Program-made: the position numbers and the translations under genes
Part shown: in pieces, positions 3 through 10,273 of the stretch
How the letters are laid out: every line of letters starts with the position of its first letter
Position numbering within the stretch: position 1 is the first letter of the stretch
Notes under the pieces: generated by a model
Seen by the model: the letters and a program-made list of their open reading frames with translations, nothing else
The model's database searches: none
Told to the model about the DNA's origin: nothing
Source of the DNA: Thermodesulfobacteriota bacterium
GTDB lineage: Bacteria > Desulfobacterota > Dissulfuribacteria > Dissulfuribacterales > UBA3076
Assembly: GCA_003645605.1 (NCBI GenBank)
Contig: QNAY01000013.1
Coordinates: 1-10,482 of the forward strand
Direction: 5' to 3'
DNA: 10,482 bases

Positions 3-551
3 AAAGTCCGCTCATCATTCGTGGAGGTAAATAACGAGCTCGTCCTTAAGACGGCAGGACGCTACAAGCCGGAAGAGATGCTGCTGCTTATGCCTCATTG
101 TCTGCAGAGATCCAAGTGCAAGTTACGTCTGACCTATTCTATCCATAACTGCAAGCGTTGCGGCAAATGTCCCATTAGCGACTTGATTGCCCTGAGCGAA
201 CGGTACTCTGTCTTTCTGGCCATTGCCACCGGCGGCACCATTGCCCGCAGAATCGTGATCCAGCGTATGCCGAAGATGATTGTGGCCGTAGCCTGCGAGC
301 GAGATATGGCCAGCGGTATCCAGGACACCTATCCCCTGCCGGTCTATGGGGTATTGAATACCAGACCCCATGGGCCCTGTCTCGACACCCAAGTCGCTAT
401 AGAAAGTGTAGAACAGGCCCTCCGCAGATTCATGCAACCCCGATACTATCCGGAAAATCTGCATCAAGATCAGGATGCCGGCGACAAAGAAACAGCCGAT
501 GTCAGAGAAAATCTTGTTGAGACCGGACAGGCTGTAGCCGAAGCTGCCTGA
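3..551 (+). CDS. DUF116 family protein (5' end cut by window edge)
   Basis: Partial protein of the DUF116 family; the biochemical function of the family is not established. Recognised from PHCLQRSKC, a cysteine cluster (HNCKRCGKC), an ATGGTIARR block, VACERDMASGIQDTYPLPV and LNTRPHGPCLDT. Counting from the GTG at position 21, cysteines fall at residues 27, 33, 44, 47, 50, 92 and 120, which suggests metal or Fe-S binding (inference). The frame stays open to the left edge, and the six codons before that GTG (KVRSSF) read like normal family sequence, so the gene very probably starts outside the window and the GTG is not its start. The usual N-terminal, often membrane-spanning part would be missing. 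After about residue 138 the tail is polar and not recognised. It lies 46 bp upstream of hpnH on the same strand and may be co-transcribed with it. Confidence 0.85.
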   Translation, partial: KVRSSFVEVNNELVLKTAGRYKPEEMLLLMPHCLQRSKCKLRLTYSIHNCKRCGKCPISDLIALSERYSVFLAIATGGTIARRIVIQRMPKMIVAVACERDMASGIQDTYPLPVYGVLNTRPHGPCLDTQVAIESVEQALRRFMQPRYYPENLHQDQDAGDKETADVRENLVETGQAVAEAA

Positions 552-597: not shown

Positions 598-1605
598 ATG
601 GGAATACCAATTACTCAAAAAGCCCGTATCGGGAAGTATATCATCAGTCAGATGCTGATGAACCGGAATCGCTTTCCGCTGGTGCTGATGCTTGAGCCTC
701 TCTTTCGCTGCAACCTGCGCTGTAAGGGTTGCGGCAAGGTGAATCACCCTCCTGAGATACTGCGTAATCATCTCAATGTTGAAGAATGTGTGGGAGCGGC
801 TGAAGAATGCGGCGCGCCTGTGGTAAGCATAGCCGGAGGCGAGCCATTGCTCCACCCGGAGATCACCACTATTGTGGATGAACTCATCAGCCGCAAACGG
901 TTTATCTATCTTTGTACCAATGGCCTACTGGTGGAAAAGCGATTCCATGATTTTTCTCCCACCCCCTATCTCACATTTAATGTCCATCTGGATGGTATGA
1001 ATGAGCACCACGATCTTGCGGTCCGCCACAAGGGAGCCTTTATAAAGGCTACTGAAGCCATCCGCAAGCTGGTAGCAGCCGGTTTCAGGGTAACCACCAA
1101 CACCACCTTTTTCAAAGGACAGACTGTGGAAGACGCAGCCAGGCTGTTTGATCATCTCACTTCCCTGGGAGTTGAGGCCATGACCGTGGCCGCTGGTTTT
1201 AATTACGATTCAGCCGATGATCAGGACTGCTTTCTGGGCAGGGAAGGTACAAAAGAGCTGTTCAGAAACATTTTTCGTCAGGCCAATTCGTCCTGGACTT
1301 TTAACCACTCAAGCCTGTATCTCGATTTTCTGGCAGGAAACCGTGATTATGCATGCACACCATGGGGAAATCCGACCAGGAACCAGTTCGGCTGGCAAAA
1401 GCCGTGTTACCTGCTCAATGATGGCTACGTGGCCACCTATCGTGAGTTGATAGAGGACACCGATTGGGACCGGTACGGGGTAGGACGTGATCCCCGCTGT
1501 GCCGACTGCATGCTCCACTGCGGCTTTGAGCCGAGCGCTGTCCTGGATACGGTTAAACATCCTTGGCGGGCGCTCACTGTTAGCCTGCGCGGACCGGGGG
1601 GATAG
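598..1605 (+). CDS. hpnH: HpnH, radical SAM adenosylhopane synthase
   Basis: Radical S-adenosylmethionine enzyme that joins a 5'-deoxyadenosyl group to hopene (diploptene) to give adenosylhopane, the first step of C35 side-chain building. The 335-residue protein begins with the family-typical MGIPITQKARIGKYII. The radical-SAM motif CNLRCKGC supplies the 4Fe-4S ligands C38, C42 and C45. The SAM-binding GGEP motif is at 80-83 and a LCTNG strand follows at 105-109. C-terminal cysteines at 253, 270, 301, 304 and 308 resemble a SPASM-like auxiliary region. Length is normal for the family. The ATG start is supported by an AGG seven bases upstream (588-590). The stop lies 5 bp before the target duplication of the miniature element at 1619-1765, so that element did not alter this gene. 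The product feeds HpnG, encoded convergently next door. Confidence 0.95.
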   Translation: MGIPITQKARIGKYIISQMLMNRNRFPLVLMLEPLFRCNLRCKGCGKVNHPPEILRNHLNVEECVGAAEECGAPVVSIAGGEPLLHPEITTIVDELISRKRFIYLCTNGLLVEKRFHDFSPTPYLTFNVHLDGMNEHHDLAVRHKGAFIKATEAIRKLVAAGFRVTTNTTFFKGQTVEDAARLFDHLTSLGVEAMTVAAGFNYDSADDQDCFLGREGTKELFRNIFRQANSSWTFNHSSLYLDFLAGNRDYACTPWGNPTRNQFGWQKPCYLLNDGYVATYRELIEDTDWDRYGVGRDPRCADCMLHCGFEPSAVLDTVKHPWRALTVSLRGPGG

Positions 1606-1618: not shown

Positions 1619-1765
1619 GTAACCGTTCACACTCCCTGGCAGCCGACAGGCTTTTGCAGGGTTTCAACTGCGGACAAGGTTGCACCAAAAGGCGTGTTCT
1701 CAACGGATTGTGCTTTGAAACCCGAAAAAGGCTGTTGGCTGTCAGGGGGGGAAGTGAATGATTAC
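1619..1765. mobile_element. 147-bp MITE with IS66-type ends
   Basis: Non-autonomous miniature element with no transposase. Its ends are imperfect inverted repeats: GTAACCGTTCAC (1619-1630) against the complement of GTGAATGATTAC (1754-1765), 10 of 12 bases matching. Inside, arms at 1641-1667 and 1715-1740 pair over about 26 bases, including a perfect GGGTTTCAA/TTGAAACCC block. The whole element can therefore fold into one long imperfect hairpin with a loop around 1670-1712. Perfect 8-bp direct repeats CGTGCCTG flank it. GTAA termini together with 8-bp duplications are the known signature of the IS66 family, so I infer mobilisation by an IS66-type transposase encoded elsewhere. It sits between the convergent genes hpnH and hpnG. 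Its right end provides the hpnG stop codon, and its hairpin could act as a two-way transcription barrier. Confidence 0.82.
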
Positions 1766-2535
1766 CGTGCCTGGGCAGCGGACAGAAACGGTTCATCGAC
1801 TAAGAGCCATGCCCTTTCCAGGGCGATCAGGGCCTGACGGAACCGGCAGGCCATTCGTATCATATCCCGCAGGAGCCAGGGACGTCGCACAAGATGAGCC
1901 AGGAGATAGCCGATCCTGGGATTGCCCTGCTCATCCACCATTGCAAGTAAGGTGTCAGCCACAGTCTGATCGGCCGTATCGCATATGGCCCGCAAACAGA
2001 AAAAAGGGAGTCCTGCCTCTGCGGCAACTTCGCAAACCGCTCTGCTCTCCATGTCCACTGCCAATGCGCCGGTCAGTCGATGAGCGCTCAGCTTTGAGGC
2101 TGCGGTTGGAATCGGTTTGGGTGAACAGAGTATGGGGCCTTGATAAAAGTGGATAGCGTTCTCTTGAAATTTTTCTGCAATGTAATCGATGAGCCAGGCA
2201 TCGGCTCTAAAGCTGGGAGGTAGAGCCTGTGTCGGAGGCAGTGCATGCAGATCGAGATCCCAGGTCAGTACCCTGTCAGCCAGTACAAGGTCTCCAGTCT
2301 TTAGGGCGGGGTGTAAACCGCCGGATACACCGAATGAAACAAGCAATTCACTTATGTCGGCCAGATATTCTGCCTGCCTGCGAGCCGCTTGCAGACCGAT
2401 TCCCGACTGATGGACAACTATTTTCCCTTTTGCCGGCAACCCTTGTATCATCTTATTTGCCACCCGGGTCAGCACTCTGGCTTCAGCCGGGAGAGCAGCA
2501 ACTACGCCGATAGTGGGAAGCGAGTCAGTATGCAT
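1762..2535 (-). CDS. hpnG: HpnG, adenosylhopane nucleoside phosphorylase-like enzyme, 3' end reshaped by MITE
   Basis: Hopanoid-associated phosphorylase of the purine nucleoside phosphorylase/MTA-SAH nucleosidase fold. In characterised hopanoid producers it cleaves adenine from adenosylhopane to give ribosylhopane. Visible motifs (numbering from ATG 2535, 257 residues) are the N-terminal GVVAALPAEAR with E18, GVSGGLHPALKTGDLVLADRV from about 69, VDMES with E163, and RAICDTAD with D186. The last two correspond to the substrate-ribose Glu and catalytic Asp of the nucleosidase superfamily. Starts are also possible at ATG 2550 and GTG 2568; none has a clear Shine-Dalgarno site, and I prefer 2535 because conserved sequence begins eight codons later. 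The TAA stop (1764-1762) lies in the terminal repeat of the MITE. Before insertion the frame would have run nine codons further and ended inside hpnH. All motifs precede this change, so the enzyme is probably active. Confidence 0.9.
   Translation of the reverse strand: MHTDSLPTIGVVAALPAEARVLTRVANKMIQGLPAKGKIVVHQSGIGLQAARRQAEYLADISELLVSFGVSGGLHPALKTGDLVLADRVLTWDLDLHALPPTQALPPSFRADAWLIDYIAEKFQENAIHFYQGPILCSPKPIPTAASKLSAHRLTGALAVDMESRAVCEVAAEAGLPFFCLRAICDTADQTVADTLLAMVDEQGNPRIGYLLAHLVRRPWLLRDMIRMACRFRQALIALERAWLLVDEPFLSAAQAR
1766..1773. repeat. Right 8-bp target-site duplication, CGTGCCTG
   Basis: Exact copy of 1611-1618, immediately after the TTAC end of the miniature element. It lies within the last codons of hpnG, read on the - strand as part of AQAR. 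Confidence 0.85.
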
Positions 2536-2576
2536 TGTATTTGCCAGCATAATAAGATTGAAAAGCACATGGGCTC

Positions 2577-4595
2577 ATGGGTTCGACCCCTCATAGCATG
2601 ATCACGGACAGCCTGCAACAGGGGATCAAAAACGGTGTATCCTGGTTGCTGGATAACCACCGGCCGGAAGGATTTTGGGTAGGAAACCTGGAAACCAACT
2701 CCTGCATGGAAGCAGAGTGGGTCCTGGCCATGCATTTCCTCGGTATTGAGAATGATCCGAAGTATGAATCGGTAATCCGGGCAATTTTGAACGAGCAGCG
2801 CCCCGACGGTTCATGGGAGGTTTACTATCAGGCGCCCATTGGCGATATCAACACCACGGTCGAGTGCTATACAGCACTGAGAGCTTCCGGCATGCCGGTT
2901 GACGCCATGCCTCTCCACAAGGCGAGAAAATGGATCTTTGAGCATGGCGGGCTGGGGGACCTCCGGGTCTTTACAAGATATTGGCTTGCCCTGTTTGGTG
3001 AATGGCCCTGGGATGCTATCCCGGCGCTGCCTCCGGAAATCATATTTCTGCCATCCTGGGCCCCCTTTAATTTCTATCAGTTCGCATCGTGGGCCCGTGG
3101 CACCATTATTCCGCTGACAGTGCTGAGTGCCAGACGGCCGGTCAGAAAATTTCCGCCGGAGCACCGGATTGATGAGCTTTTTCCCAAGACACGGAATCGT
3201 TTTGATTACCGATCTGCCGGTAAAGGCCATACCTCTTTCCGGCAGCGCCCCTTCTATTGGTCTGACCGGTTGTTGAGCCGGTATACCGGGTTTCCGTTTC
3301 ATCCAGGCAGGGAATCGGCCATCCGCCAATGTCTGGAATGGATCATTCGTCATCAGGAGGCGGATGGAGCATGGAGCGGCATTCAGCCGCCATGGATCTA
3401 CTCACTGATGGCTTTGCATGTGGAGGGATACGCCATTGATCATCCAGTGCTGGCAGCCGGACTTGATGCCTGGAATCAACACTGGAAATTCGAGAAAAAC
3501 GGGGCCACCTATCTCCAGGCCAGTGATACGCCTGTGTGGGACACACTTCTTTCACTTCTTGCCCTTTTGGACTGCCGACAGGATTTCAATGCAATACCGC
3601 AGATGCAAGCCGCTCTGGAATGGATCCTGAACGAGCAGGTTATGGCAGGAGGGGACTGGCAGGTCTATGTCAAAGACGTGGAATCTGGCGGATGGGCCTT
3701 TGAGCGGCAAAACGATTTTTATCCCGATGTGGATGATACGGCAGTGGCCATAATTGTCCTGCTCAGGTTGCTGCCTGCCTTACATGGCTCCGGCCTGCGA
3801 AGCCGGATTGATACGGCTGTACGCAAGGCGGTTGCCTGGATGAATGCCATGCAGAGCTCAAACGGTGGCTGGGGGGCCTTTGACAAGGACAACAACAGCC
3901 GTTTTATTACCCTTATTCCTTTCTGTGATTTCGGCGAGACGCTGGATCCACCAAGTGTTGATGTAACAGCCCACGTACTGGAGGCCCTCGGGCTCCTGGG
4001 ACGGGGGACGGATGATCCCGTTGTTGCCCGGGCCTACAGATATGTCCGGTCAGAACAGGAAGAGGACGGTAGCTGGTTTGGCCGCTGGGGGGTCAATCAT
4101 ATCTATGGAACATCCGCAGTCCTACCGGCCTTGGAGGCCATTGGCGAGGACATGAATGCGCCCTATGTGCAGAAAGCGGCCCAATGGATCGTGGACCACC
4201 AGAACCCGGACGGTGGCTGGGGCGAAAGCTGCGGCTCTTATATGGATATCACACTCAGAGGATGTGGTCCCAGTACTGCGTCACAGACCGGCTGGGCCCT
4301 CATGGCCCTTGTGGCCACGGGATCCCATGCCTATGACCCGGTGATTGAAAAGGGGCTGGCATGGCTGCTGGCAACGCAACGCGCTGACGGCACTTGGGAT
4401 GAGCCGCAATATACCGGCACCGGCTTTCCTGGCTATGGAATCGGCGAACGCACCGACATTGCCAAGGCGGTGGATAAACTGGATCAGGGCAGCGAGCTTG
4501 CCAGGGGATTTATGCTGAACTACAACATGTACCGCCATTATTTCCCGCTCATGGCCATGGGCAGAGCACGACATCACCTGCTAAAACGTAAATGA
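2577..4595 (+). CDS. shc: Squalene-hopene cyclase
   Basis: Membrane-associated class II triterpene cyclase that converts squalene to hopene/diplopterol in one proton-initiated polycyclisation. The 672-residue protein carries the catalytic DVDDTA motif at 384-389; D386 corresponds to the proton-donating central Asp of the family. QW repeats (QxxxGxW) that stabilise the alpha-barrel are at 74-80, 260-266, 426-432, 494-500, 542-548 and 601-607, with a degenerate one near 354-361. The C-terminal LNYNMYRHYFPLMAMGRAR is typical. Length is slightly above the roughly 630 residues of the Alicyclobacillus enzyme, so it appears full length. The ATG at 2577 lacks a strong ribosome site and ATG 2598 is an alternative. 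It is divergent from hpnG, leaving at most about 41 bp between starts, so its promoter probably lies in hpnG coding sequence. hpnCDE, which supply squalene, are not in the window. Confidence 0.97.
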   Translation: MGSTPHSMITDSLQQGIKNGVSWLLDNHRPEGFWVGNLETNSCMEAEWVLAMHFLGIENDPKYESVIRAILNEQRPDGSWEVYYQAPIGDINTTVECYTALRASGMPVDAMPLHKARKWIFEHGGLGDLRVFTRYWLALFGEWPWDAIPALPPEIIFLPSWAPFNFYQFASWARGTIIPLTVLSARRPVRKFPPEHRIDELFPKTRNRFDYRSAGKGHTSFRQRPFYWSDRLLSRYTGFPFHPGRESAIRQCLEWIIRHQEADGAWSGIQPPWIYSLMALHVEGYAIDHPVLAAGLDAWNQHWKFEKNGATYLQASDTPVWDTLLSLLALLDCRQDFNAIPQMQAALEWILNEQVMAGGDWQVYVKDVESGGWAFERQNDFYPDVDDTAVAIIVLLRLLPALHGSGLRSRIDTAVRKAVAWMNAMQSSNGGWGAFDKDNNSRFITLIPFCDFGETLDPPSVDVTAHVLEALGLLGRGTDDPVVARAYRYVRSEQEEDGSWFGRWGVNHIYGTSAVLPALEAIGEDMNAPYVQKAAQWIVDHQNPDGGWGESCGSYMDITLRGCGPSTASQTGWALMALVATGSHAYDPVIEKGLAWLLATQRADGTWDEPQYTGTGFPGYGIGERTDIAKAVDKLDQGSELARGFMLNYNMYRHYFPLMAMGRARHHLLKRK

Positions 4596-4616: not shown

Positions 4617-5387
4617 TCAATAGATATCTTCGGGTTCCTGCATAGAGCACATACGCTTCAGGAGTGCCATGGCCTCCCTCCATTGTGGCGTAATACCATG
4701 AGCAGGTGGCATGTCATCCAGGAGTCTGTGCAACTCAAGACAGGCCTGACCAGGCTCTTCCTCAGCCAAAAGCGCCTCTATTAATCCGAGCCGGTTTTCT
4801 TTAAACCCAAGGCCGTGGTCAAGAGCTCGGCGGTAATGGACGACGGATTTGCTTGAATCCCCGAAGCTCACGGGAAAGCCGGGTGCACGCAAATACAATT
4901 CGCCTAACATCCTGTCAGGTCCGCCATGATCGATCTTTGGACTCAATTTGGCGGCCAACAATGCCTCACGCTCGATAGTTGGTACAAGGTTGAGGCCCCG
5001 CACGGGATCATTCTCAGCTTCCAGGCCGGTCAGGTATGCGGCCAAATAGTGGGCCAATCCGGAGTTTGGAAGCATGTTTACTGCTGCTTCGGCCAGGTTC
5101 CGACCCTGCCTGGCATCGGCAAGCATCAACACTTTATCCCCTTCCTGTTTTATCAGAACTACATAGCAACTCGCGGCCTTTATGGCAGTCCCGGCATCTT
5201 TTCCGGCAGTTGCAGTCCACTGTATTGCCTGTTTGCGGGTACAAGGTGTCCAGAGGACAAAACTTGAATCTGCCGCGGCAGGGTCCTTATCTACTGTCTC
5301 TTTGGCGCTCTGCCGTGGCAGATCAGAGACCTTAGCGCATGCTCCAACAAGAAAAAGAACCACCAACAGGCTACGGACAATCGTCAT
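4617..5387 (-). CDS. Predicted outer-membrane lipoprotein with TPR-like region, hpnN-associated
   Basis: 256-residue predicted lipoprotein. The N-terminus MTIVRSLLVVLFLVGAC is a type II signal peptide with lipobox VGAC, giving lipidated C17. The residue after it is Ala rather than Asp, which fits outer-membrane sorting by the enteric Lol rule (inference). Residues from about 95 to 245 are helical and repeat-like: a GGPDRMLGELYLRAPGFPVSFGD block at 155-177, then VVHYRRALDHG and a helix pair ending near 245. This resembles tetratricopeptide repeats and recalls TatT-type lipoproteins of TRAP systems; I hold that resemblance only as a possibility. Its ATG overlaps the stop of the solute-binding protein gene by 4 bp (ATGA), so the two are translationally coupled. 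It is the last gene of the hpnO-hpnN unit and is convergent with shc, 21 bp from the shc stop. Function is unknown; a role in hopanoid export is inferred from context. Confidence 0.75.
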   Translation of the reverse strand: MTIVRSLLVVLFLVGACAKVSDLPRQSAKETVDKDPAAADSSFVLWTPCTRKQAIQWTATAGKDAGTAIKAASCYVVLIKQEGDKVLMLADARQGRNLAEAAVNMLPNSGLAHYLAAYLTGLEAENDPVRGLNLVPTIEREALLAAKLSPKIDHGGPDRMLGELYLRAPGFPVSFGDSSKSVVHYRRALDHGLGFKENRLGLIEALLAEEEPGQACLELHRLLDDMPPAHGITPQWREAMALLKRMCSMQEPEDIY

Positions 5388-6202
5388 TTTACACCCAACC
5401 TGAATCCGGGCAAATCACTGTCCGACGGGCCAAAGCCGTCGGTTTGAAGGAGGCCCAGCAGTGTATCCGCGTCCGGATCACGGCGCATCCCTTTGAGTAT
5501 TGCGGCCAATCGCTCCATCCGTTCATCAGGATGCCCAAAACAGACCATCGGGCTTGTGGGGAGTTCCCCGGAGGTCAAGATGATCTTAATCTTCTTGGCC
5601 AGAGGCAGGGCTTTCAGTGCCTTATATTGCATTCGATCCAACACAACACCGGCGGCCTTTCCCCTGATCATCATTCGTAAGGAACGGAGTGGACTGGATG
5701 TGCCCTTCAACTTAAATGGCAATTGTGCGGCTCGGCACCCGAACAGGATGCAGGCTGCGGCATCTGTCTCAAAAAGCATGTTTCCCAGTACGTTTCCGCG
5801 CAAGGCATGCCACTCTCCCGGGGCTTCATGGTTTACAGCCAGCCGCCACACGTCTTTACCCGATCCTCCGGGACGGCTTGAAGCTAAGGCCGTCATGGGA
5901 AAACTCCGGAAGAATTGGGCGTAAAAGCCAAGACGCGCAATGCCCCACTTGGGCGGGGTATTGCGCATAAAATCCAGGGCCTGGTCAAGGTCGTTGAAAT
6001 AGCGTCCCTTGACTGTGATTCCTCCACCCATTTTCTCTTCCACATAGCAGGCTAAGGAGTCCATAACCGGCTGGGCCTCCTGGGAAGTGCCCGGCTGACC
6101 TGGTTGAATGACAGCGAAATCAAGGGCTTCGCCGGTGAGGGCCGGACTGCCCCAGGCAAACAAACTGATTGCAAACAGCAATGCTACTGAGATACGCTTC
6201 AT
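5384..6202 (-). CDS. PhnD-like periplasmic solute-binding protein, hpnN-associated
   Basis: 272-residue secreted protein. The N-terminus MKRISVALLFAISLFAWGSPALTGEA is a Sec signal peptide with cleavage probably between residues 21 and 26. The mature part resembles phosphate/phosphonate-type (PhnD-like) solute-binding proteins: FAVIQPGQPGTSQEAQPVMDSLACYVEEKMG near 29-58, GRYFNDLDQALDFM, GIARLGFYAQF, MIRGKAAGVVLDRMQYKAL near 168-186, and a C-terminal LPTSPMVCFGHPDE...DGFGPSD block. The frame is open to ATG 6241, but I chose ATG 6202 because AAGG lies five bases upstream, it begins a clean signal peptide, and it avoids overlapping hpnN; ATG 6214 is also possible. The stop overlaps the lipoprotein start (ATGA). 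No ABC permease or ATPase is nearby, so it may serve HpnN instead. The ligand is unknown; phosphonate uptake has no support here. Confidence 0.78.
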   Translation of the reverse strand: MKRISVALLFAISLFAWGSPALTGEALDFAVIQPGQPGTSQEAQPVMDSLACYVEEKMGGGITVKGRYFNDLDQALDFMRNTPPKWGIARLGFYAQFFRSFPMTALASSRPGGSGKDVWRLAVNHEAPGEWHALRGNVLGNMLFETDAAACILFGCRAAQLPFKLKGTSSPLRSLRMMIRGKAAGVVLDRMQYKALKALPLAKKIKIILTSGELPTSPMVCFGHPDERMERLAAILKGMRRDPDADTLLGLLQTDGFGPSDSDLPGFRLGVK

Positions 6203-6203
6203 C

Positions 6204-8900
6204 CTAGCCTTCATCCTTTGTCTTTGAGATGAAGTTGCCAAAAAGCTTGAGCGCTGGTGGAAGCACTAAAAGAGAGGCAACCATCCCCATTAAGGACCCG
6301 AGCACCATGACCGCTCCTAAGCTTGCCAGACCGCGGTGGTGCGCGAAAAGCAGGCCCCCAAACCCTATCATAGTGGTGGCAAAGCTCAAGGTTACGGCTG
6401 TAGGCGTGCTTGTGAAAAACAACCCGCTGCTGCCTTGAAGCTCTTTCCAGCGTGCCAGGAGATGCACACCCCCGTCCACACCGATAGCAATAAGAATGGG
6501 AATAGCAAAAAAATTGGCTAAATTAAAGTCCAGGCCAATCATGCCCATTAATTCCAAAAGCCATAGCATACTCACCCCTAAAGGCAAAAGTGTGAGAAGT
6601 ACATAGCGAAGAGAGTATGAATGGAACCACAAGATAAGGCTCACCAGACACACAGTCAGCGCGGCCGCGAAAAGGAAGGTCCTGTGCATCAATCTGGCCG
6701 ACTCAAGCACCCCTACCGGAACGCCGCTCACTTTGGGGTCCACCCGCCGCAAGTCAGACACGAAATGCTCCAGCTTCTCAAAATCCCAGACATCTTCGCT
6801 GGGGCTGACTTTAATCTGATAGCTGCCGTCCTTGCCCACGTATATGTCTCGAATGGAGGCCGGAAGATCCTTTGGTGTCACCGATTTTGTATTAAGCCGG
6901 CGTTTCAATTGCTGAAGTGTGTTCACTATATTGCCGTACAATTGGGCCTGGAGCCCTGTCAGGCGCGAGACCTTTGCCGGGTCATGTTGAAGGATATCAA
7001 GGGAGGACTGTATTTGGGTAATACACTGGTCAATGCGGATCAATTCGGCGCCGGCGCCGGCAGCGAACAATTTTTCCTCTAAACTTTCCAGGACTGAGCC
7101 AAGATGAGCTAAGGCATTGATCAACGAATCCGGATCAGGACCTGTGGTTACGGAGTCAGATACTGGTATGTCGTCTAAGGCTATAGCGGACCTGGCATAC
7201 AGGGCCGACCTCTGCGCCTGTTCTTGCGGAATGAAATCCAGGATACTATCGACTTTGCTCACACTGGGCATGGCCTCAAGGCTTTTGGTCAACCGCTTTA
7301 CATCATCCAGGTTGTCCGCCGTAAGAATAGCATACCAGGTAGATTCGTCTGATGAGCGGATCAATTGCTCTTCATATTCCACCGATTCCAGACCCTTGGC
7401 CTGAAGCTCCAATAGATTGTAATTGAAGCGCGCCTTGAAAAGGCCAGGGAGCCCGGCAAGGCTCAGGGCTACAATAATCAATAGCACCCACCCCGGTCGC
7501 GCAGAGAGACGTTCAAGAAATGGCATGGCGGACACCCTGGGCGCAGATGAGGGAAAAAGGTTTTTCCTTCCAGCTATCAGCAACATAGCCGGAAGCACGG
7601 TCAATGTGGCCAACAGGCACAGAAGAACACCGGTACCCCCGATAAGCCCCAACTGTGCAAGACCTGTAAAATTGGACCCGAGCACAGAATAAAAGGCACA
7701 GACCGAGGTGATTGCGCCCAAGATGACACAGGGACCAGTTTTGAACATAGAGGTGAGGACCGCCTCTTCCACGCCGACTTGGCCCCTTTTAGCCTCTATG
7801 TACCTCATGACCATATGTACCCCGAAATCCACGCCTATGCCCACCAATACCAAAACAAAAACAATGGACAAGAGGTTCAACTCGCCTACGGTTACCGTAG
7901 CGAATCCGAAGGTCCAGGCCATGGCCATACCAAGGCAGATCAAAAGCAAGATGGGCCTGAGCCACCCGTGGAGGATAACCGTGAACAAAAGCCCTACAAG
8001 AATCACGGCGATAATAGACGCCCTGGTCATGTCCTTCTCAGTAGTCCGCATCTCGTCGGCCTGGAGTACAGGCCGTCCCGTGAGACCGGCTTCAAGGCCG
8101 GGAAAGTCGGCACCCGTGGTCTTTAACGCCTGGCGGACTACCTCTATGGGTTTGCCGATAACGTCCATAGTCCCGTAATCTTTCTTGGGCAAAACCCGCA
8201 TGACCAGGATCCTGCCGTCCTTAGTGAAAAAATACTCCCCCCCGATTTCAGCGAGATTGAATAGAGAAGATTCTGAAGGTTTGCCCACCAAGTCATTGTT
8301 TATGTTTGCAAGCAACCGCTCCAATGCTTCAAAAGCTTGGTGCAAAAGGGAAGCATCGAATGTGGGTATAGCCCTTTGATCCGAACCGAGTAATACACTT
8401 ATCTGAACCAGGAAGCCTGCCAGGCTGGGATTCTTGATCCAATTATTTAAGGCAGGGGCCAGGAAAACCACTGTTTCGGCAAGGGTTTTGGCCTCCTCCG
8501 GAGAAGCGAAAAGGAGTGCCCCATTCCCCAAATCACGAGGCAAAATGCGGTAGTAGATGGCCTGAATAAGGTCCGGATGCTGGAGCAATCGCTGGTTCAG
8601 GCTTTCAGCGAATTGCTCGGCCTTTTTCTTTCCTTCTTCAGTACCACCGGTCTTGATAACAACATAGATGTGTTCTTGATCGCCGAAGTTTTTTAGATTC
8701 TCCAAGTATCTTTTGTGGAAAGGCACTTCAGGGGAGACCAACTGGTCCTGGTTGCTATTAAGACGCAGAAAAAAAACCGCGGACAGGACCGAGATTAAGG
8801 CCAATGTCAGGCCAAACGCAATAATAGTGCCCGGATGCAGGGCTATCTGCCGCCAAAGCGCGCTTAACATGCCATCCAGAAGTTCTTTCTGCGAAATCAT
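6204..8900 (-). CDS. hpnN: HpnN, RND/MMPL-family hopanoid exporter
   Basis: Inner-membrane RND-superfamily transporter of the hopanoid-associated type, known to move hopanoids toward the outer membrane. The 898 residues show the duplicated RND layout. A transmembrane helix at about 25-45 is followed by a periplasmic domain (about 50-290) and a helix bundle at about 293-445. The second half has a helix at about 470-487, a periplasmic domain to about 740, and a bundle at about 742-885. Each bundle carries the proton-relay-like motif, GIGVDFGVH at 354-362 (D358) and AIGVDGGVH at 805-813 (D809). The second periplasmic domain has a long, probably coiled helical stretch at about 590-670. Start ATG 8900 overlaps the stop of the aminotransferase gene (ATGA) and has no strong ribosome site, which suggests translational coupling. 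The TAG stop is one base before the start of the solute-binding protein. Confidence 0.95.
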   Translation of the reverse strand: MISQKELLDGMLSALWRQIALHPGTIIAFGLTLALISVLSAVFFLRLNSNQDQLVSPEVPFHKRYLENLKNFGDQEHIYVVIKTGGTEEGKKKAEQFAESLNQRLLQHPDLIQAIYYRILPRDLGNGALLFASPEEAKTLAETVVFLAPALNNWIKNPSLAGFLVQISVLLGSDQRAIPTFDASLLHQAFEALERLLANINNDLVGKPSESSLFNLAEIGGEYFFTKDGRILVMRVLPKKDYGTMDVIGKPIEVVRQALKTTGADFPGLEAGLTGRPVLQADEMRTTEKDMTRASIIAVILVGLLFTVILHGWLRPILLLICLGMAMAWTFGFATVTVGELNLLSIVFVLVLVGIGVDFGVHMVMRYIEAKRGQVGVEEAVLTSMFKTGPCVILGAITSVCAFYSVLGSNFTGLAQLGLIGGTGVLLCLLATLTVLPAMLLIAGRKNLFPSSAPRVSAMPFLERLSARPGWVLLIIVALSLAGLPGLFKARFNYNLLELQAKGLESVEYEEQLIRSSDESTWYAILTADNLDDVKRLTKSLEAMPSVSKVDSILDFIPQEQAQRSALYARSAIALDDIPVSDSVTTGPDPDSLINALAHLGSVLESLEEKLFAAGAGAELIRIDQCITQIQSSLDILQHDPAKVSRLTGLQAQLYGNIVNTLQQLKRRLNTKSVTPKDLPASIRDIYVGKDGSYQIKVSPSEDVWDFEKLEHFVSDLRRVDPKVSGVPVGVLESARLMHRTFLFAAALTVCLVSLILWFHSYSLRYVLLTLLPLGVSMLWLLELMGMIGLDFNLANFFAIPILIAIGVDGGVHLLARWKELQGSSGLFFTSTPTAVTLSFATTMIGFGGLLFAHHRGLASLGAVMVLGSLMGMVASLLVLPPALKLFGNFISKTKDEG
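6208..6211 (-). promoter_or_regulatory. Ribosome binding site deciding the solute-binding protein start
   Basis: AAGG on the - strand, five bases (CTAGG) before ATG 6202. It lies in the last codons of hpnN, whose TAG stop (6206-6204) falls between this site and the start codon. This supports the start at 6202 and coupling of the two genes. Confidence 0.6.
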
Positions 8901-10273
8901 GCGGATTTGGCAGTACGAACGCCAAGTTTCGTGACCGTTGTCCAGGCGGAACCGGGAAAAGTGTGCGCTTCCTTCAGGACCTGGTCCATTGCTTCAAGAA
9001 AATAGTCTGCATCGCTCTCATCGATAATGAGGGGAGGCAGAATCTTAACAGTATCTAATCCGTGTCCCGCCACCTGGGTCAGGACATGATGTTTGGCCAG
9101 GAGAGGCATGGTGATTATTTGACAAAAGAGGTCCTCGTTCATTTTGTGCAAGAGCTTCCAACCGGCTTTCAGCGTATATGACCTGGGTTCGCCGAACTGT
9201 ATTCCGATCATAAGGCCTTTCCCCCGGACATCGCGAATCAGCTCATAGCCGCCCGCCAACTCTTCAAGGCCTGTCTTAATGTAGTCACCCATCCTGGCCG
9301 ATCGCTCGGCCAAATTCTCCTGTTCAAGCACGTGAAGAGTGGCAAGACCTGCGGCCATAGCAAAGTCATTCTGGCCAAAAGTGTTGGAATGAGCAAAACA
9401 TCGATCCATGCTGTCGAACACTTTGGAATGAATTCCCCGTTTGCTGATAATTGCGCCTACCGGGATATACCCTCCGGAAAGTGCCTTGGACAGGACAAGG
9501 ATATCCGGGACAACGTCCCAGTGATTCACCGCAAACATCCTGCCTGTGCGACCAAATCCGGTCTGGACTTCGTCCGCAATGAGAATCGTACCATATTCGT
9601 CACACAGGCGGCGGGCCCTTGGTAGATAGTCGTCATCAGGAATGAATACACCCTTTCCCTGGATCGGTTCCACAATGAATGCGGCCACATCCCCCCCGGA
9701 AAGGGCGGCTTCAAGTGCCTCCGGATCATTAAATGGAACAGGAATACAGTCAGGCAGTAACGGTTCGTTGCGGCCGCGAAACTCCTCGTTGCCGTTCACA
9801 GACAGTGCCCCCAAGGTCAGACCGTGGAAGGCGTGGTTGCAATAAACCAACTTGCTCCTTCCCGTGGCTTGCCTGGCGAATTTCAGGGCGGCCTCCACTC
9901 CTTCAGCTCCTGAATTGGTAAAAAAAACCGCTTCCAGATCACCTGGCGCCAGGGAAGCTAACGCTTCGGCCAGGAGGCCGGAAATGGTTCCCACATCCAT
10001 CTGGACCATGCCGGCCGGATCGCTGTCTAACATATCATGGAGGACCCGGGCCACCAAAGGATGGTTGCGGCCGATATTAAACACACCGAAACCAGCCAAA
10101 AAATCAAGCACTTCCGCGCCCTTTTCGTCTTTAATCCATGCCCCTTTGGCTGTAGTATAATTTCGGTCAAATCCGATAACCTGTAACACACGCACAAACT
10201 GGGGATTAATATAGCGACGGTGCAAATCGTAGGTATCGCCAAGTCGGCTTTTCACGAGGGATATAATGTCCAT
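8897..10273 (-). CDS. hpnO: HpnO-type class III aminotransferase (aminobacteriohopanetriol formation)
   Basis: PLP-dependent class III (acetylornithine/ornithine-type) aminotransferase, 458 residues. Key features are NSGAEGVEAALKFAR (120-134, cofactor phosphate), HAFHG (147-151, ring stacking), VEPIQGKG (201-208), ADEVQTGFGRTG with D234 contacting the pyridine nitrogen, the Schiff-base Lys K263 in LSKALSGG, and SNTFG with T298. In Rhodopseudomonas, hpnO is needed for aminobacteriohopanetriol. I assign this role from its place directly upstream of, and 4 bp overlapping, hpnN; by sequence alone an amino-acid or diamine aminotransferase would be possible. Start ATG 10273 is the only in-frame start before an upstream TAG and has AAGGA ten bases upstream. 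First gene of the four-gene unit. C35 amino-hopanoids are the likely product, tying the enzyme to HpnH and HpnG. Confidence 0.85.
   Translation of the reverse strand: MDIISLVKSRLGDTYDLHRRYINPQFVRVLQVIGFDRNYTTAKGAWIKDEKGAEVLDFLAGFGVFNIGRNHPLVARVLHDMLDSDPAGMVQMDVGTISGLLAEALASLAPGDLEAVFFTNSGAEGVEAALKFARQATGRSKLVYCNHAFHGLTLGALSVNGNEEFRGRNEPLLPDCIPVPFNDPEALEAALSGGDVAAFIVEPIQGKGVFIPDDDYLPRARRLCDEYGTILIADEVQTGFGRTGRMFAVNHWDVVPDILVLSKALSGGYIPVGAIISKRGIHSKVFDSMDRCFAHSNTFGQNDFAMAAGLATLHVLEQENLAERSARMGDYIKTGLEELAGGYELIRDVRGKGLMIGIQFGEPRSYTLKAGWKLLHKMNEDLFCQIITMPLLAKHHVLTQVAGHGLDTVKILPPLIIDESDADYFLEAMDQVLKEAHTFPGSAWTTVTKLGVRTAKSA

Follow-up and report, generated by a model that had tools for sequence, protein, structure and literature searches.

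An HpnN-like pump gene coupled to BstB-like and BstC-like genes in a hopanoid locus of a Thermodesulfobacteriota bacterium

In Rhodopseudomonas, the RND pump HpnN was reportedly found by Doughty in 2011 to be needed for outer-membrane hopanoids, a work cited in PMC12583986 and PMC10942540. Hopanoids are bacterial relatives of cholesterol, and the locus described here bears on how, apart from HpnN, they are carried from the inner membrane to the outer one. The closest described system is BstABC (7t1m, 7t1s), which transports sterols in Methylococcus capsulatus by a three-part route in which the pump BstA resembles HpnN, BstB is the carrier and BstC is assigned to the outer membrane, and both BstB and BstC bind sterols, as is stated in the available part of PMC10942540. 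In that part, Deltaproteobacteria are mentioned solely as belonging to the BstC cluster and HpnN solely for its homology to BstA, and in an open-licence literature search the paper was the only source in which BstB or BstC appeared. For HpnM, the accessible part of a 2025 study gives a role "possibly involved in transport" and calls the exact function elusive (PMC12583986). The stretch analysed here, referred to as the window, comprises positions 1 to 10,482 of contig QNAY01000013.1 from a draft Thermodesulfobacteriota genome (1.9 Mb, 390 contigs, 83% complete). On its minus strand, within 4617-10273, the genes of an HpnN-like pump, a BstB-like carrier (bstB') and a BstC-like lipoprotein (bstC') are coupled; the stretch holds a hopanoid locus, and the three coupled genes probably encode a BstABC-type lipid exporter that is used for hopanoids. 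The features of the window are the following:

3-551, plus strand: end part of a DUF116 gene
598-1605, plus strand: hpnH, adenosyl-hopene transferase gene (TIGR03470, 519.4 bits, cut-off 225.05)
1762-2568, minus strand: hpnG-like phosphorylase gene (TIGR03468, 146.4 bits, below the cut-off of 187.1)
2577-4595, plus strand: squalene-hopene cyclase gene (TIGR01507, 656.4 bits, cut-off 431.1; DxDD motif)
4617-5387, minus strand: TPR-type lipoprotein, BstC-like (bstC'; no Pfam family above cut-off)
5384-6202, minus strand: secreted two-lobe periplasmic carrier, BstB-like (bstB'; Phosphonate-bd, 29.7 bits, cut-off 27)
6204-8900, minus strand: HpnN-like RND (MMPL) pump (Pfam MMPL; TIGR03480, 558.9 bits)
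8897-10273, minus strand: class-III aminotransferase, hpnO-like by context (Aminotran_3, 309 bits)

The pump start and the aminotransferase stop overlap by four bases (8897-8900), a single base (6203) lies between the pump stop and the ATG of bstB', and the bstB' stop overlaps the bstC' ATG by the four bases ATGA (5384-5387). An initial annotation of this DNA had described these overlaps and the 1-nt gap, and they are exact on the coordinates; it had also remarked that ABC and TRAP membrane subunits are not nearby, and in a Pfam scan none of the eight window proteins matched such a family at E <= 0.1. In the open reading frame list, bstB' has an alternative in-frame TTG at 6241, which would overlap the pump gene. 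The aminotransferase gene is called hpnO-like from its context; of the 70 NCBIfam families matched, the 25 listed include no HpnO model.

The arrangement recurs. When contigs were scanned with the binding-protein alignment, 23 loci came up, in records named Deltaproteobacteria, Thermodesulfobacteriota, Pelobacter, Desulfuromonas, Desulfovibrio, Syntrophobacteraceae and similar, and since the scan patterns are narrow, more distant relatives may be missing from this number. The nearest named locus (L006, Deltaproteobacteria bacterium isolate CSMAG_2277) has a binding protein that is 94% identical to that of the window, and the typical gene order among the 23 loci is (hpnO)-hpnN-bstB'-bstC'-hpnH. 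In 20 of them, the pump lies on the same strand as bstB' and at most 150 bases upstream of it; it is not found upstream in two (L005 and L021) and is undecidable in L004, which starts 68 bases ahead of bstB'; in the genomes of L004 and L005 a pump is present at the edge of another contig, and in that of L021 no long pump match was found. A bstC' match follows bstB' in 22 loci (partial in L013 and L018), the contig of L021 ending first, while hpnH occurs in 18 and an aminotransferase gene ahead of the pump in 14, with an additional 36-residue remnant in L025. The coupling exceeds chance, with the pump adjacent in 20/23 loci, and bstB' and bstC' do travel with an hpnN-like pump in hopanoid loci. 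Of the observations named beforehand as speaking against the proposal of the initial annotation, an occurrence mostly without hpnN was not seen, and regular adjacency to phosphonate or TRAP permeases did not occur among the commonest flanking families: none of the 25 commonest of the 108 Pfam families in 96 flanking open reading frames is of these kinds, which leaves room for single cases. An ABC_tran and UPF0014 pair downstream of hpnH in L005 looks unrelated.

Within the phylum, the binding-protein alignment matched eight of 198 genomes at E <= 0.001; the hopanoid type was represented only by the window genome and G127, the others being G083 and five at 8e-14 or weaker. The BstB model matched 21 of 395 phylum genomes at 1e-6 or better, and seven exceeded 60 bits, all of them with a BstC-like and an RND (MMPL) gene adjoining: five hopanoid-type genomes (window, G127, G296, G391 and G254; G391 and G254 are probably the same genomes as L007 and L014), a trio in G083 and a pair in G174. 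Of the 14 weaker genomes, six (G128, G359, G312, G101, G129, G181) had their neighbourhoods inspected, and no BstC-like or HpnN-like gene was found there. The BstB-like/BstC-like pair of G174, one of the five genomes that the alignment matched at 8e-14 or weaker, is more distant. It lies at L158 7608-11564, its neighbour is an MMPL gene of 785 residues in convergent orientation, and this makes a third way in which RND and Bst genes are associated.

The pump missed the cut-offs of both HpnN models (TIGR03480, 558.9 of 751.85 bits; NF052374, 367.9 of 1100 bits) and of the BstA model (313.2 of 1400 bits), and its best PDB relatives are HpnN structures (5khn, 1.2e-68; 6wu0, 4e-67), followed by MmpL4 at 9.6e-21. 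For comparison, 28 of 198 phylum genomes have a long HpnN-model match (E <= 1e-60), nine of them above the cut-off. In a tree of 50 pumps, all 24 window-type pumps are split off by one branch with a Shimodaira-Hasegawa-like approximate likelihood-ratio test (SH-aLRT) support of 100, the nine over-cut-off HpnN form another group (SH-aLRT 95), and 15 of the remaining 16 pumps group together, with L077 standing beside the window type at weak support (80). BstA as close kin of the window pump was rejected, the BstA of G083 standing on a branch of 3.58 with unsure placement. The window pump shares with HpnN (TIGR03480; 5khn, 6wu0) the family and a hopanoid locus with hpnH and shc, but it belongs to a clade of its own below the cut-off and is accompanied by a Bst-kind carrier and a lipoprotein, not by an HpnM above cut-off. 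In the ten loci, of 21 looked at, that hold all five genes in full, the distance correlation is 0.85 for the pump and bstB' and 0.81 for the pump and bstC', and as values of 0.61 to 0.85 were also obtained when HpnH or HpnO was one of the two, this shows common descent only.

Judged by sequence, bstB' and bstC' are distant relatives of the known bacterial sterol transport system. They scored 74 bits with the BstB and 65.7 bits with the BstC model of NCBIfam, each with a cut-off of 350, and as all these curated cut-offs were missed, the trio of the window is assigned to neither BstABC nor HpnN. In sequence, the solved protein nearest to bstB' is BstB and that nearest to bstC' is BstC; the predicted fold of bstB' is also nearest to BstB, whereas that of bstC' does not by itself single out BstC, its matches including 8g52 and 3u64. 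These are TatT/TPAT lipoproteins, from which the window differs in having no TRAP membrane subunit and a bstC' that is nearest to BstC in sequence; a TRAP/TPAT system was rejected, such a subunit being absent among the eight window proteins. The lipobox of bstC' is LVGAC followed by Ala, and a simple lipobox pattern was found in 46 of 53 bstC' rows (32 alignment rows plus open reading frames of the loci, with possible duplicates), with Ala directly following the Cys in 31 of the 46 and Asp in none. In E. coli, the residue at this position bears on outer-membrane location.

HpnM above cut-off was found in five of the nine genomes with an over-cut-off HpnN, in none of the 16 with other HpnN-class pumps and in none of the 24 examined for the window-type locus. 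Of the latter, 22 have sub-cut-off matches to the HpnM model, which were not inspected singly and are taken for ordinary MlaC because E. coli gives such matches too. In ten of the 16 other loci (L079, L080, L083-L090), an HpnM/MlaC-like gene directly follows the pump, a count made from match coordinates with three of these loci also scanned. Such carriers would fill the same role, that of a periplasmic lipid carrier beside an RND pump, but their family is unrelated to bstB'. With the Bst kind beside window-type pumps and the MlaC/HpnM kind beside others, at least two unrelated kinds of periplasmic carrier accompany HpnN-class pumps. The initial annotation had described HpnN as lacking well-defined periplasmic and outer-membrane partners; a partner set of this kind does have a precedent, since BstABC has been published, and other HpnN-class pumps have MlaC/HpnM-like carriers. 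Some of the genomes of the ten loci have HpnH elsewhere, and these loci are possible RND-MlaC lipid routes.

The setting of the trio is that of hopanoids. Among the 25 genomes with a gene of the hopanoid type (the window genome, G127 and 23 named ones), 22 have a squalene cyclase above cut-off, the misses being G206 (NaphS2), G215 and G217, and none has an HpnM above cut-off. DxDD is a mark of hopene cyclases and VSDCT is the motif of oxidosqualene cyclases; DxDD was found in every cyclase locus but the fragment L128, and VSDCT in none of the cyclase loci. Squalene epoxidase was matched in none of the 25 genomes, a set with no known-epoxidase genome and with the window genome 83% complete, and the model does give matches in the E. 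coli and Caulobacter controls. Sterol synthesis was accordingly found neither beside the locus nor in the genome, and the window cyclase is of the squalene-hopene type. A sterol transporter proper was rejected, with the Bst cut-offs missed and squalene epoxidase absent from the 25 genomes. Three genomes, G210, G211 and G214 (L115/L124, L116/L125, L120/L126), have two kinds of squalene-hopene-type cyclase each, a window-like one with the motif context ERANT and a QFEN/QYEN kind.

Like BstABC, the window encodes an HpnN-like RND pump, a PhnD-fold carrier and a TPR-type BstC protein side by side. It differs in that trios of its type sit in hopanoid loci, that squalene epoxidase was not matched in their genomes, that all three scores are far below the cut-offs and that the pocket residues differ and are conserved in the clade. 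Coupling, recurrence and homology to HpnN, BstB and BstC come directly from the computation, and from them we infer substrate, direction, energy source, the membrane of the lipoprotein and contact among the three proteins. The HpnN-like pump, driven by the proton gradient, would extract from the inner membrane a hopanoid that probably carries a polar side chain, and hand it to the two-lobe carrier BstB', which would cross the periplasm, and the TPR lipoprotein BstC', probably anchored in the outer membrane, would receive it there. The three-part export system proposed in the initial annotation is thereby supported in part, by the linkage to hopanoid loci and by the carrier BstB and the outer-membrane-assigned BstC as nearest relatives, whereas hopanoid substrate, direction and docking are still what we infer. 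This suggests that the locus offers some deltaproteobacteria-type bacteria a hopanoid route to the outer membrane, and the BstABC design would extend from sterol makers to hopanoid loci. The locus also points to two proteins whose relatives have been solved and which are open to purification and direct tests.

The pockets were read by alignment with 7t1m and 7t1s against the cavity residues given in the available part of PMC10942540, at about 20% identity, in a fold that is common to anion binders. At the head-group positions of BstB', E118 is replaced by D in 32/33 rows, Y120 by W in 32/33 and N192 by D in 33/33 (D189 may be a family-wide Asp), and of the 19 tail positions, 13 are non-polar and six mostly polar (Q33, R90, S109, T216, S217 and T254 in the window). 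Of the 32 rows of BstC', 21 have K or R at E86 and only one has E; R132 is replaced by E in 30/32, M170 by E in 32/32 and F208 by G in 32/32. With the reservations of the low identity, the shared fold and a possibly family-wide Asp, the changes might fit a polycyclic lipid whose head is larger or more polar, for example an amino-triol side chain. It is possible, as a tentative extension, that HpnN, BstB' and BstC' together take side-chain hopanoids all the way across the periplasm, in place of the MlaC/HpnM-type carrier, that the polar (perhaps amino-triol) side chain is read by the clade-conserved D117, D189, Q33 and Q36 of BstB' and E125 and E163 of BstC', and that the methanotroph BstABC is a substrate-switched cousin.

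Among the alternatives to hopanoid export, the one that survives best, still an unlikely one, is that the trio moves another lipid (a precursor, a carotenoid or a phospholipid) rather than the finished hopanoid, or that it retrieves lipids. Direction and substrate of the trio are predictions, and uptake-type systems are where the BstC-like TPAT/TatT proteins belong (8g52 and 3u64 as fold matches; available part of PMC10942540), but in most of the 23 hopanoid loci bstB' and bstC' are flanked by the pump and hpnH, a cyclase is found in 22/25 genomes, and HpnN is the closest solved relative of the pump. It is very improbable that the binding protein is an ordinary binder or sensor of small solutes or anions of the PhnD, ArrX or AioX kind (PF12974) that neighbours hpnN by chance: in profile comparison it reached E 1.1e-24 with BstB, against a near-background 0.012 with ArrX and no better with other anion binders, the window has no ABC permease, permease families are not common in the flanks, and a BstC-like partner is present wherever visible (22/23). 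An ordinary phosphonate binder is disfavoured likewise by profile comparison, flanking families and predicted fold. The S-T-S motif of PhnD is present in 2/33 bstB' rows, but as the PF12974 controls looked at lack it too, it does not discriminate anion binders. Least probable of all is a transport of sterols taken up from outside, which would fit the homology to BstB and BstC and requires no sterol synthesis, but is opposed by the hopanoid gene setting, by E at the sterol-contact position E86 of BstC in a single row of 32, and by scores far below the Bst cut-offs, compared to 1261, 378 and 279 bits for the trio of G083 in the same phylum.

The trio of G083 (L092 5980-10351) is BstABC-like, with BstB over its cut-off of 350 bits and BstA and BstC below theirs (1400 and 350). 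Squalene epoxidase, squalene cyclase and HpnH were searched in this genome (96% complete, 8% contamination) and none was found. As to the DUF116 gene at 3-551 beside the hopanoid locus, no counterpart turned up by tblastn in the 23 named loci, and a 62% alike copy is located upstream of the G127 pump (L078 9177-10337).
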